A stretch of DNA of 64,000 nt, from NCBI RefSeq assembly GCF_018476645.1, contig NZ_JAHCTB010000001.1:310001-374000 (forward strand), in the 5' to 3' direction. This stretch comes from Aequorivita echinoideorum. Lineage in GTDB: Bacteria; Bacteroidota; Bacteroidia; Flavobacteriales; Flavobacteriaceae. Positions within the stretch are counted from its first letter, which is position 1, and each line of letters begins with the position of its first letter. Both the position numbers and the translations under genes were made by a program. This document shows, one piece after another, positions 31,859-61,679 of the stretch. The notes below the pieces were generated by a model. That model did no database searches and was not told where the DNA came from. It worked only from the letters and a program-made list of their open reading frames with translations.

Positions 31859-31884
31859 GGTCTCGACTGCGCTCGACCTGACAT
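31859..31884. repeat. Dispersed intergenic repeat, copy 2, next to leuS
   Basis: GGTCTCGACTG..CTCGACCTGACA is an imperfect inverted repeat (TCGAC/GTCGA halves) sharing both ends with the copy at 195-246. It lies between the peptidase start and the leuS stop. Confidence 0.5.
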
Positions 31885-31922: not shown

Positions 31923-34900
31923 TTACCCAACAATATTCACAATTTTTCCGGGAACTATAATCACCTTTTTCGGTTTTCTTCCCTCTAAATACTGGGCTGT
32001 TTTCTCGTGTGCCATTACGGCAGACTCAATTTCTTCTTTTGAAATACCTAACGGAAGTTCAAGCGTAAAACGCATTTTACCGTTAAAGGAAATGGGATAT
32101 TCCTTGCTGCTTTCAACCAAAAATTTCTCTTCAAATTTTGGGAAGGGTGCCGTTGAAATACTTTCGTTGTGCCCAAGTTTCTCCCAAAGTTCCTCCGCAA
32201 TGTGCGGTGTGTAAGGCGAAATAAGAATTGTCAACGGTTTCAAAACCTCGCGCGAATTGCAGTTTTGCGCAGTAAGTTCATTCACGGCAATCATAAATGA
32301 CGAAACCGAAGTATTAAAGCTGAAATTCTCAATGTCTTCCTGCACTTTTTTGATGGTTTTGTGCAAAACCTTAAGACTGTCTTTGGAAGCCGAATCCTCC
32401 GAGACATAGAATTCCAGCTCCCCTCCTTCGGAAAGGGCGGGGGAGGCCGAATGGTACAATTTCCAAAGTTTTTTTAGGAAACCTTGCACGCCCGTAATCC
32501 CGGCGGTGTTCCACGGCTTTGCCTGCTCCAATGGCCCTAGGAACATTTCGTACATCCGCAACGTATCGGCACCATACTGCTCGCAAATATCATCGGGGTT
32601 TACCACGTTGTATTTGCTTTTGGACATTTTTTCAACTTCGCGACCTACAATGTATTTCCCATTTATTCCAATGACTTCAGCGTCTTTAAATTCTGAAGAT
32701 TCATTTTTAAAACTATTTATATCTAGTTCATTCGAACTATTTACAAAAGAAACGTTTGTATGAATTGCTTGAGCGGAATATGAAATGCTAAAATTATTCA
32801 AATCAAAATAATGAATATCTTCTTTTGGAATTAAATGTTTAAATGAATTTATCCTTTCTTTCTCAAGATCTTTTTCTGTCAACTTTTTTATTTCATCTTC
32901 GCTAAAACCCTTACTTCTTTTCCATTTTTTAAATTCATCAAATTTGAAAAATTGAAGTGGAATTAGAATTTTATCATTTTTTAATTGAATGGTCTTAACT
33001 ATAAGTTTTCTTGTCTCTCTAGCCCATTCATCTCCCATTTGAGCAAATTTTTTCACATCCGGTATCTCTGAAATTGTAATTTTAGAATTCATTCGATACA
33101 CAAACGCACTCTCTCCCAAAATCATCCCTTGATTGATCAACTTTTTAAAAGGTTCGTCCACAGGCACCAAACCGCGATCGTGCATAAACTTCACCCAAAA
33201 ACGGCTATACAATAAATGGCCCGTGGCGTGCTCGCTGCCGCCAATGTATAAATCCACGTTTTTCCAATAGTCCAATGCTTCTTTTGAGGCGAAAACTTCG
33301 TCGCGCTTTTCATCTTCCATGTAGCGGAAAAAATACCAACTGCTGCCCGCCCAACCTGGCATAGTGTTCAATTCAAGCCCCCAAACCCCCGAAGGGGGCT
33401 TTTCGCCTTCCGGGACCGAAACAACTTCATTTTTGTTTTCGTCCCAATGCCATTTTGTGGCACGGCCCAAAGGCGGTTCGCCCTCTTCGGTGGGCAAGTA
33501 TTTTTCAACTTCAGGTAAGCGCAACGGCAAACATTCGGTGGGGATTGCGTGCGGCATTCCATCTTTATAATAAATAGGGAACGGCTCACCCCAATAGCGC
33601 TGGCGGCTGAAAACGGCATCGCGCAAACGGTAGTTTATTTTTCCCTTGCCTACGCCTTTTTCTTCCAAAGCCGCGATGATTTTTTCGGTCGCTTCGGAAT
33701 AGTTCAATCCATTTAAGAAATCGGAATTCTTCAAAACAAAGCCTGTTTTTTCCGAAAATGCTTCCGTTTCAATTAGATTTTCGTTCTCATTAATTCCCCC
33801 TTCGGGGACAAGGGGGCTGAAAATATTCGGAATCGGCAAATTGAAATGTTTTGCAAAATCATAATCGCGTTGATCGCCGCAGGGAACGCTCATCACCGCT
33901 CCGGTTCCGTAGCCCGCGAGAACGTAATCGCCAATCCAAATGGGTAATGGTTCTTTTGTAAATGGATGTTCCGCATACGCGCCCGTGAAAACACCGGTAA
34001 TACTTTTAACATCGGCCATTCGCTCGCGCTCGCTGCGTTTTGCGGTGGCTTCAATATAGTTTTCAACAGCTTCTTTTTGCTCCGAAGTCGTGATTTTTGA
34101 AACCAAATCGTGCTCTGGTGCCAAAACCATAAAGCTAACGCCGAAAATGGTGTCGGGACGTGTAGTAAAAACTGGGATTTTGAATTCTGAATTCTGAATT
34201 TTGAATTCTACAGTCGCGCCTTTGGAACGTCCAATCCAGTTGGTCTGCGAATCTTTTAAAGGTTGTGGCCAGTCGATGGTATCGAGACCGTCAAGCAAAC
34301 GCTGGGCATACGCGGTAATTCGCATACTCCACTGTTTCATTTTTTTGCGGACCACGGGATAGCCACCACGTTCGGAAACGCCGTTTACTATTTCGTCGTT
34401 CGCCAAAACGGTGCCTAGCTGTGGGCACCAGTTTACTTCGGTTTCGGCGAGGTATGTCAATCTATATTTTAAAAGAATTTCCTGTTTTTTAATTTCTGAA
34501 AAACCAAGCCAGTCCGAAGCGGTAAAATGTTCAACACCTTCATCGGCAACCGCATTTATATGGACATTTCCTTCCGAAGAAAAAATTCCGCGTAATTCTT
34601 CTATCGATCGCGCCTTGTCTGCATTTTTATCGTACCAACTTTCAAAAAGCTGGAGGAAAATCCACTGCGTCCATTTGTAATATTCGGGATTGCTGGTGCG
34701 CACCTCACGGCTCCAATCGAATGAAAAACCTATTTTGTCAAGCTGTTCTCGATAGCGGGCAATATTTTCCTCGGTTGTCTTCGCGGGATGCTGTCCCGTT
34801 TGAATGGCGTATTGCTCCGCCGGAAGTCCGAAAGAATCATATCCTTGCGGATGCAACACGTTGAAACCTTGATGGCGTTTGTAGCGCGCATAAATATCAC

Positions 34901-35075
34901 TGGCAATATACCCCAGCGGATGCCCCACGTGCAAGCCCGCGCCGGAAGGATAAGGGAACATATCCAAAACATAGTATTTTGGTTTTTTGCTTTGGTTCTC
35001 AGCCTTAAAGGTTTGGTTTTCGGCCCAAAATTTTTGCCATTTTGCCTCTATTTCGTTGAAGTGATATTTGCCCAT
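31923..35075 (-). CDS. leuS: Leucyl-tRNA synthetase with repeat-derived and unknown inserts
   Basis: 1050 residues, versus about 920-970 for the flavobacterial LeuRS I recall. HVGH is at 49-52, the editing domain has FTTRPDTIFGV, and KMSKS is near 816-820. Start set at ATG 35075 (MGKYHFNEIEAKW), with a TAAATTTG box at 35126-35133; the frame farther upstream is unrelated sequence. Between FVYR and the KMSKS loop sits a ~105-residue Lys/Glu-rich insert (about 662-767). Four other loops are encoded by short palindromic or repetitive DNA: near residues 290-300, 421-427, 559-567 and 877-886. All sites fall in variable loops and all catalytic motifs are intact, so I expect a working enzyme. Confidence 0.95.
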   Translation of the reverse strand: MGKYHFNEIEAKWQKFWAENQTFKAENQSKKPKYYVLDMFPYPSGAGLHVGHPLGYIASDIYARYKRHQGFNVLHPQGYDSFGLPAEQYAIQTGQHPAKTTEENIARYREQLDKIGFSFDWSREVRTSNPEYYKWTQWIFLQLFESWYDKNADKARSIEELRGIFSSEGNVHINAVADEGVEHFTASDWLGFSEIKKQEILLKYRLTYLAETEVNWCPQLGTVLANDEIVNGVSERGGYPVVRKKMKQWSMRITAYAQRLLDGLDTIDWPQPLKDSQTNWIGRSKGATVEFKIQNSEFKIPVFTTRPDTIFGVSFMVLAPEHDLVSKITTSEQKEAVENYIEATAKRSERERMADVKSITGVFTGAYAEHPFTKEPLPIWIGDYVLAGYGTGAVMSVPCGDQRDYDFAKHFNLPIPNIFSPLVPEGGINENENLIETEAFSEKTGFVLKNSDFLNGLNYSEATEKIIAALEEKGVGKGKINYRLRDAVFSRQRYWGEPFPIYYKDGMPHAIPTECLPLRLPEVEKYLPTEEGEPPLGRATKWHWDENKNEVVSVPEGEKPPSGVWGLELNTMPGWAGSSWYFFRYMEDEKRDEVFASKEALDYWKNVDLYIGGSEHATGHLLYSRFWVKFMHDRGLVPVDEPFKKLINQGMILGESAFVYRMNSKITISEIPDVKKFAQMGDEWARETRKLIVKTIQLKNDKILIPLQFFKFDEFKKWKRSKGFSEDEIKKLTEKDLEKERINSFKHLIPKEDIHYFDLNNFSISYSAQAIHTNVSFVNSSNELDINSFKNESSEFKDAEVIGINGKYIVGREVEKMSKSKYNVVNPDDICEQYGADTLRMYEMFLGPLEQAKPWNTAGITGVQGFLKKLWKLYHSASPALSEGGELEFYVSEDSASKDSLKVLHKTIKKVQEDIENFSFNTSVSSFMIAVNELTAQNCNSREVLKPLTILISPYTPHIAEELWEKLGHNESISTAPFPKFEEKFLVESSKEYPISFNGKMRFTLELPLGISKEEIESAVMAHEKTAQYLEGRKPKKVIIVPGKIVNIVG
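32418..32445. repeat. GC-rich palindromic piece inside leuS (a)
   Basis: CTCCCC and GGGGAG flank a TTCGG-containing centre. It encodes a run reading SPALSEGGELEF in LeuRS, at a point where other flavobacterial LeuRS proteins have an unrelated loop before the anticodon-binding domain (from recall). Confidence 0.55.
32775..33090 (-). other. ~105-codon in-frame insert in leuS before KMSKS
   Basis: This AT-rich piece encodes residues about 662-767, including FKFDEFKKWKRSKGFSEDE and KDLEKERINSFKHLIPKED. It falls in the leucine-specific region between the FVYR strand and the KMSKS loop. It has no intein splice motifs, no stop, and no domain I recognise. Flanking residues on both sides line up with ordinary LeuRS as I remember it. 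Confidence 0.55.
33376..33400. repeat. GC-rich palindromic piece inside leuS (b)
   Basis: AGCCCCC and GGGGGCT form a seven-base perfect stem around AAACCCCCGAA. It encodes KPPSGVWGLEL just before the TMPGWAGSSW motif. Confidence 0.6.
33796..33816. repeat. GC-rich palindromic piece inside leuS (c)
   Basis: CCCCC, TTCGGGGACAA and GGGGG form a short stem. It encodes SPLVPEGG in a loop before the SDFLNGLNY segment. Confidence 0.6.
34176..34209. repeat. GAATTCTGAATT-type short tandem repeat inside leuS (d)
   Basis: Three to four units of (T)TGAATTC run in a row. They encode EFKIQNSEFKI in front of FTTRPDTIFGV in the editing domain. Similar AATTC/AATTT strings are frequent between genes in this window. 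Confidence 0.6.
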
Positions 35076-61208: not shown

Positions 61209-61679
61209 ATGATTTATGACGAAGAAAAAATAAAAGTCCCAAGATTCAACGAAGCATCCGGCTTCTACACTACGAAAAAGCGTTCCAAAATGATGGGGAA
61301 AATCCGTGGGAAGAATACCAAACCCGAATTGCTCTTCCGGAAAGCACTTTGGAAAAAAGGAATCCGTTATCGGGTTGACAATAAAAAACTTCCCGGAAAA
61401 CCGGATGTTTCCATTATAAAATACAAACTTGCCATTTTCATTGACGGAGAATTTTGGCACGGTTACAATTGGCCCGACCGAAAGAAAACTTTAAAAAGCA
61501 ACCGTGGTTTTTGGATTCCCAAAATTGAGCGCAATATGCAGCGCGACCGTGAAGTGAATCGTCAACTCGAGGAAATGGGATTTACCGTTTTTCGCTTTTG
61601 GACCAACGAAATCAAGAATGATTTAGACCAGTGCATCAATGATGTTTTGGTTTTCATAAATACAGGACAGAATGATTAA
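61209..61679 (+). CDS. Very short patch repair (Vsr-like) mismatch endonuclease
   Basis: 156 residues. TTKKRSKMMGKIRGKNTKPE and LPGKPDVSIIKY with catalytic D66, then IFIDGEFWHGYNW with H84, match the Vsr endonuclease fold. Vsr nicks T:G mismatches made when 5-methylcytosine deaminates. The HGCFWHGH-type zinc cysteines of E. coli Vsr are altered here (GEFWHG, no nearby Cys). No DNA methyltransferase is in the window, so it is an orphan. It overlaps the aminotransferase gene by eight bases. Confidence 0.82.
   Translation: MIYDEEKIKVPRFNEASGFYTTKKRSKMMGKIRGKNTKPELLFRKALWKKGIRYRVDNKKLPGKPDVSIIKYKLAIFIDGEFWHGYNWPDRKKTLKSNRGFWIPKIERNMQRDREVNRQLEEMGFTVFRFWTNEIKNDLDQCINDVLVFINTGQND

Follow-up and report, generated by a model that had tools for sequence, protein, structure and literature searches.

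The leuS gene and its four in-frame repeats

The window, a 64,000-nucleotide stretch of a 2.93 Mb genome (G000:C11:310001-374000), contains leuS, the gene for leucyl-tRNA synthetase (LeuRS), which has Pfam matches to the LeuRS editing domain and to class-I synthetase families; the closest named leuS genes are those of Aequorivita. The gene carries short repeats at four places, here called sites A to D (Table 1), and our subject is the relation of these repeats to an element encoding a DUF559 nuclease domain, found at some of the same sites in other genomes. A preliminary description had claimed that all four repeats are translated in frame, and this is correct, as each peptide lies within a single open reading frame (ORF) that runs without a stop.

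Table 1. Coordinates in the window of leuS, its repeats and other features mentioned in the text
Feature	Position	Strand	Description
leuS, leucyl-tRNA synthetase	31923-35075	minus	1050 aa, no internal stop; carries all four repeats
Site A	34176-34208	minus	in-frame heptamer array (RRATTCA)n, peptide EFKIQNSEFKI
Site B	33796-33816 (palindrome); 33795-33818 (peptide)	minus	GC palindrome, peptide SPLVPEGG
Site C	33376-33400 (palindrome); 33369-33401 (peptide)	minus	GC palindrome AGCCCCCTTCGGGGGTTTGGGGGCT, peptide KPPSGVWGLEL
Site D	32409-32446; 32409-32444 (peptide)	minus	GC palindrome, peptide SPALSEGGELEF
Hypervariable leucine-specific domain of leuS	32631-33089		leuS residues 663-815
Intergenic TCGACTGCGCTCGA repeat	31860-31883		downstream of leuS
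Vsr mismatch endonuclease gene	61209-61679	plus	Pfam Vsr, 2.8e-29

As first described, sites B to D hold GC palindromes and A is a tandem run. The palindromes follow the scheme CCCCC-NNN-CCCCC-RAA-GGGGG, that scheme reversed, or a related design with a longer stem. Site A is neither a palindrome nor a net insertion. It is a direct 7-bp array of the units GAATTCA, AAATTCA, GAATTCA and GAATTCA, and its peptide has a period of seven residues, EFKIQNS, because the DNA repeats a 7-bp unit. In length the array equals the plain loop seen in two congeners (VEFKIQNSEFKIPVF vs VTFNVKDHDAKIDVF), which makes site A a replacement. No second (RRATTCA)n array was found by a scan of the window. The palindromes are not special in being readable without stops: although B, C and D have none in six frames, the same holds for 66% of shuffles of C.

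Coincidence as the source of the palindromes is rejected by synonymous-codon shuffles, in which one strict palindrome pattern was compared between the genes and 20 shuffles. Twenty-six congeneric leuS genes contain 23 palindromes in 12 genes, against a shuffle mean of 0.5 and a maximum of 3, and 79 named leuS loci (80 minus L046, a mis-called ORF) contain seven in seven genes, against a mean of 0.2 and a maximum of 1. The leuS of the window scores two under the strict pattern, B and C; D escapes it.

A search of the genome outside leuS had been suggested, and it recovered the C-type palindrome and the site-A heptamer elsewhere; the D type did not follow, its single genome copy found being that of leuS. 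The C-type palindrome occurs at 11 distinct places at ≤1 mismatch, B and C included, and a reversed control pattern gave 0 forward matches and 1 reverse match at ≤3 mismatches. Seven of the 11 places are in frame within genes: two in leuS, two in metH, and one each in genes for an HI0933-like flavoprotein, a GH92 glycosidase and a class-II tRNA synthetase, which we take for AspRS. One further copy is at the C terminus of an amidohydrolase-like ORF, and three are seemingly intergenic or at the start of a gene. The site-A heptamer recurs at further genome places, metH among them.

States of the four sites across the genus

We extracted the gene from 28 Aequorivita genomes, one per species, and counted site states on 26, dropping the partial leuS genes of G013 and G017. 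At site A, where classes were assigned by hand, two congeners have a plain loop, six a heptamer array (our gene included), five inverted heptamer arrays, two a GAGCGCAGTCGA-type REP piece, three other short forms and eight an insert of about 116-168 aa, whose position is exactly that of the heptamer array in the leuS of the window. Scored as eight states, the site requires 15 changes on a tree of leuS, recG and metH and 17 on a tree of recG and metH. The long insert by itself requires 8 changes on the tree of the leuS, recG and metH cores, no fewer than with shuffled labels, and still 8 on the tree without leuS. The close species G018, G021, G001 and G020 present three different states of site A.

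The site B palindrome is found in our gene and that of G023 only. At site C, the KPPSG type is shared by our gene and that of G016, and also by another named locus, L005; five genes have a SPPSEG/SPPLEG type and two a REP piece, so that three repeat types in 9 of the 26 genes account for seven changes. A heptamer run of the CAGTTGT type is present in at least six of the 17 genes with none of the three types. Six genes, ours included, have a palindrome at site D, and in nine more one follows a few codons further on. At these places the congeners differ in their repeat or lack one, rather than sharing the same loops with the same DNA, and the earlier suggestion that repeats have repeatedly entered leuS at a few chosen places is borne out at sites A and C.

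Some further observations on these genes may be recorded here. The family of the intergenic TCGACTGCGCTCGA repeat occurs in frame at sites A and C of congeneric leuS genes. The leucine-specific domain is hypervariable within the genus: among 25 genes, mean pairwise identity of residues 663-762 is 0.16, versus 0.88-0.97 in six flanking blocks, and the stretch before the KMSKS motif varies from 69 to 166 aa, with a GC content of 0.25-0.38 versus 0.38-0.44 for the gene. An arms race is one guess at the cause. In the leuS of G016 (L102), the N-terminal 139 residues are in another frame than the remainder, from a frameshift or an assembly error.

A DUF559 nuclease domain inside conserved enzymes

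The long insert at site A in locus L100 matches DUF559 (PF04480) with an E-value of 2e-34 and 118.2 bits, versus a curated cut-off of 20.6. At leuS site A of the genus, the full element adds about 116-168 codons with no stop, and its DUF559 domain is usually flanked by GC-rich hairpins, at one side or at both. From its sequence, the insert is identified as encoding a DUF559 nuclease domain, which is Vsr/PD-(D/E)XK-like. An AlphaFold model of a filled LeuRS has a mean pLDDT of 53.9, with about 63-84 in the nuclease stretch (331-444), and that of MetH a mean of 45.8; no claim is built on the first, and the second was not used.

The domain is not confined to leuS. In long ORFs of the 28 congeners it is found in leuS of eight genomes, metH of two (our genome included) and recG of six, and it also occurs in short free-standing genes. 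It is present in 130 of 249 Flavobacteriaceae, 141 of 296 Bacteroidia and 109 of 198 phylum-sample genomes; a hand count gives at least 44 copies in ORFs of at least 346 aa among the 150 matches listed for Flavobacteriaceae, and long ORFs with DUF559 appear outside the class Bacteroidia as well, among the matches listed. We took 40 long-ORF loci from Flavobacteriaceae (rows G032 and G164 left out) and 60 from Bacteroidia, the latter a part of those listed, and in all 100 DUF559 lies inside an ORF of at least 300 aa. The 80 named leuS loci, a set selected by whole-length match, yielded no DUF559.

Excluding 17 loci that repeat others and matches below 60 bits, we obtained 117 in-gene copies from Bacteroidia: 38 at leuS site A, 10 at leuS site C, 13 in recG, 17 at three sites of metH, seven in hemD, three each in ileS, recJ and acsA, and 23 in others. 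The hosts recognised by profile comprise LeuRS, MetH, RecG, IleRS (IleS), HisD, HemD, HsdR, RecJ, acetate-CoA ligase, IcmF, MutS, a UvrD/RecB-like helicase, a CoA-transferase and a PAS/SpoIIE protein; the other hosts were named from recognised motifs. For LeuRS, MetH, RecG and IleRS, the NCBIfam profile matches in at least two stretches around DUF559, and in HisD and HemD the domain is terminal, not mid-protein. All 117 copies share six presumed catalytic residues, E/D/E/D/H/D, without exception. When GC hairpins at most 180 nt from the core are counted, 54 copies have one on the left, 70 on the right, 45 on both sides and 79 on either side; of 1571 control windows from those genes, 37 satisfy the rule.

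The ten copies at leuS site C belong to several other families of Bacteroidia. Their DUF559 domain ends 20-31 residues before the PGWAGSS motif, which is site C of the window's leuS, and the palindrome there, AGCCCCCTTCGGGGGTTTGGGGGCT, is shaped like the right-hand end of the genus elements. The element recurs at fixed sites of leuS (A and C), metH, recG and other genes, and its distribution among close species is patchy. Copies cluster by site (30 changes vs 84.5 shuffled), and in a tree of 70 the leuS, recG, metH, hisD and ileS copies are split from the free and hemD copies (branch 93/95, not starred).

An intein or self-splicing intron with a homing nuclease would also place a nuclease-bearing in-frame insert in a conserved enzyme. 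We regard this as scarcely credible here: no intein family is among the Pfam matches of the insert piece or the NCBIfam matches of filled LeuRS and MetH, five loci gave 0 Rfam matches at gathering score, and the insert ends are not intein-like in motif.

Other occurrences of the domain are worth noting. Four free-standing DUF559 genes (L189-L192, of G018, G023, G024 and G004; the same as L115, L116, L118 and L127) sit amid repeated GC palindromes on one or both sides, in a REPIN-like manner. The leuS of G180 (L161) has DUF559 at site A and two near-identical in-frame pairs (SPTLSEGKG...KSPSLGEGFRMGD), one of them in the leucine-specific domain. The Vsr gene of the window has a weak C-terminal DUF559 match, and such matches occur in many congeners, several near leuS.

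Full, short and empty states in recG and metH

The recG genes of 27 congeners comprise six full, five short and 16 empty forms. In G016 the start of the left end (AGCCCACCTCA) is joined to the right flank, and in G026 a solo right end (CCTCCGGGGAGGTTGGAGGGGCC) stands where the sister G023 has a full element. We read these two as internally deleted copies, making at least two of the five short inserts, and a solo palindrome within a gene can therefore be the remnant of a nuclease element.

A metH match was obtained in 22 of the 28 genomes (G012 is among those without), and at its site 1 two genes are full, three have a hairpin pair, 14 are empty and three were unread. The nuclease in the metH of our genome (C11:114420-114740) lies between C-type palindromes at 114366 and 114823. 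At site 2, the same gene has a heptamer array (IIQNLEFRIQNY) where that of G209 has a second full element. The two copies in the metH of G209 are sisters (99/92) and can be aligned from left palindrome to right palindrome, which suggests the limits of the mobile unit. Shorter states, namely the solo end, the hairpin pair and the internal deletion, thus share the recG and metH sites with the full element.

Indications of movement and of selection

In four of 15 recG pairs, synonymous divergence (dS) of the insert is less than half that of the flanks, with insert/flank values of 0.08/0.51 (G011-G023), 0.21/0.87 (G008-G023), 0.26/0.84 (G008-G011) and 0.37/0.92 (G008-G019). By this measure, the insert is much younger than its host gene in those pairs. 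For the core, the ratio of nonsynonymous to synonymous divergence (dN/dS) falls at 0.03-0.11 in 14 of the 15 recG pairs; among leuS cores it could be computed for 11 of 28 pairs, nine of which give 0.03-0.13 and two 0.21-0.23. The nuclease core is under purifying selection.

Such low ratios, mostly 0.03-0.13, together with the invariant nuclease residues, would also fit retention of the domain for the benefit of the host, in repair, defence or regulation of the enzyme. That the same domain resides in unrelated enzymes, is absent from leuS of close species and shares its sites with meaningless repeats makes this very improbable.

Origin of the short repeats

We consider it probable that B, C and D are solo ends of a homing-like DUF559 element that inserts in frame into conserved enzymes and stays in the protein unspliced; such ends would be either scars or non-autonomous copies. 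The nuclease, made as part of the host enzyme, would cut the empty allele, and repair would copy the element in; copying to a new site would be rare, as in the two sister copies in one metH. The hairpin ends would be read as P/G/S/E-rich linkers in loops, which would let the host enzyme function with no splicing step. A solo end would be left by internal deletion or by mobilisation in trans, and the leuS of the window would contain three such. The heptamer array of site A would come from a different repeat family that occupies the site, and may be a repair product shielding it from cutting; heptamer and REP pieces generally may be target-destroying repair products, akin to gene-drive resistant alleles. 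B and D may be remnants of a full element or insertions of a small copy.

The preliminary description had pictured small repeats entering the gene, perhaps still mobile. Recurrent entry stands, but the repeats need not enter small, as sites A (eight of the 26 congeners) and C (ten leuS genes of other families) carry the nuclease element, and at least two of the five short forms in recG are read as that element with an internal deletion. As for mobility, the four recG pairs speak for that of the full element; for that of the short pieces in the leuS of the window there is no support.

Several observations weigh against the solo-end origin. By the rule used, 38 of the 117 in-gene copies have no perfect hairpin, and six of 14 free copies have one on either side. 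Five recG pairs with G003 show no gap between insert and flank dS, and leuS inserts are mostly as diverged as their host or more, with dS near saturation. The sign of co-conversion in the flanks is weak: excess identity is limited to the 60 nt nearest the site on its right (recG 9/300, leuS type 1 29/300, uncorrected); two bins 300 nt off score equally low (3/300, 9/300), and bins farther out lose register through indels. The evidence for cutting and movement is wholly comparative. Two more points, the sharing of leuS site A and metH site 2 by unrelated repeats (heptamers, REP pieces) and the lack of any full element seen at sites B or D, which carry palindromes, fit as well with permissive loops, in which unrelated repeats land or expand by slippage or ectopic repair, and DUF559 is a passenger, not the cause of the short repeats. 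At least three unrelated repeat families are involved at those two shared sites, and B and C coincide with gaps in the alignment to Thermus LeuRS. We nevertheless think this explanation unlikely, since the full element's two flanks are retained in the recG short forms of G016 and G026, site C and metH site 2 hold full elements in other genera, and two of the 11 C-type palindromes of our genome flank the metH nuclease.

A one-clade origin of the leuS inserts of the genus is not rejected (p-AU 0.39), which also counts against the homing-like reading, and transfer between genera is accordingly not claimed on this test. This result, the clustering of the metH and recG copies (100/98 and 91/39, respectively) and the resemblance of the short recG forms to losses would suit old insertions inherited vertically, with many losses and no recent movement. 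The inserts that are much younger than their flanks in the four recG pairs and the sister copies at two sites of one metH in G209 render that account improbable.

The solo-end reading can be extended, tentatively, to the phylum: possibly, selfish elements live permanently in essential proteins there, by means of a homing-type DUF559 nuclease, hairpin ends and read-through linkers, with no need for an intein or intron. Short in-frame repeats would be decayed or drive-resistant, frame-keeping alleles of a natural gene-drive arms race, and our leuS would hold three healed scars and one resistant replacement. The nuclease appears to be a permanent extra domain of housekeeping enzymes that has recurred across many families of Bacteroidota, and a single genus shows full, short and empty states. 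Selfish-gene invasion of an essential protein, domain gain and loss, and in-frame repeats as scars of natural drive and resistance thereby become testable. There is also a warning for annotation, in that over-long leuS, metH and recG genes in the phylum are not necessarily fusions that serve the host.

Comparison with known systems

The passages of open-licence PMC literature consulted on DUF559 make no mention of in-gene or mobile copies, and those consulted more widely no description of an unspliced in-gene nuclease combined with hairpins. The nearest systems each share part of the arrangement. Rickettsia palindromic elements (RPEs), according to a passage in PMC10969869, are palindromic repeats of about 150 bp that lie in frame in many protein genes. 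Like them, the palindromes of our genome are translated in frame within genes, those of leuS, metH, the HI0933-like protein, GH92 and the class-II synthetase. Unlike them, the full form here carries a nuclease gene, and the short forms have 8-14 codons; the likeness is one of description. RPEs are not known to carry a nuclease.

Homing nucleases in conserved genes accompany introns and inteins, as stated in a passage of PMC3943268. The element resembles the Vsr-like EDxHD homing endonuclease I-Bth0305I in that a nuclease is encoded within a conserved gene at a fixed site. The DUF559 piece weakly matches 3r3p, 'Mobile intron protein' (E 0.031), which we take to be I-Bth0305I. It differs from that type in that no intron or intein was found, the insert would be translated as part of the enzyme, and cutting is here inferred.

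REP/REPIN systems likewise combine short hairpins, some in inverted pairs, with an enzyme gene flanked by them. Their enzyme, RAYT, is a Y1-type tyrosine transposase, whereas the enzyme here is DUF559 and many copies are within genes. No Y1-type transposase is indicated in the insert piece, which matches only DUF559 and MTES_1575 in Pfam; no genome-wide RAYT search was made. Finally, the element shares its domain with free-standing DUF559 proteins and with the endonuclease-like protein 3hrl (E 8.9e-20), and it differs from the free form in that the leuS, recG, metH, hisD and ileS copies lie across the 93/95 branch from the free and hemD copies.

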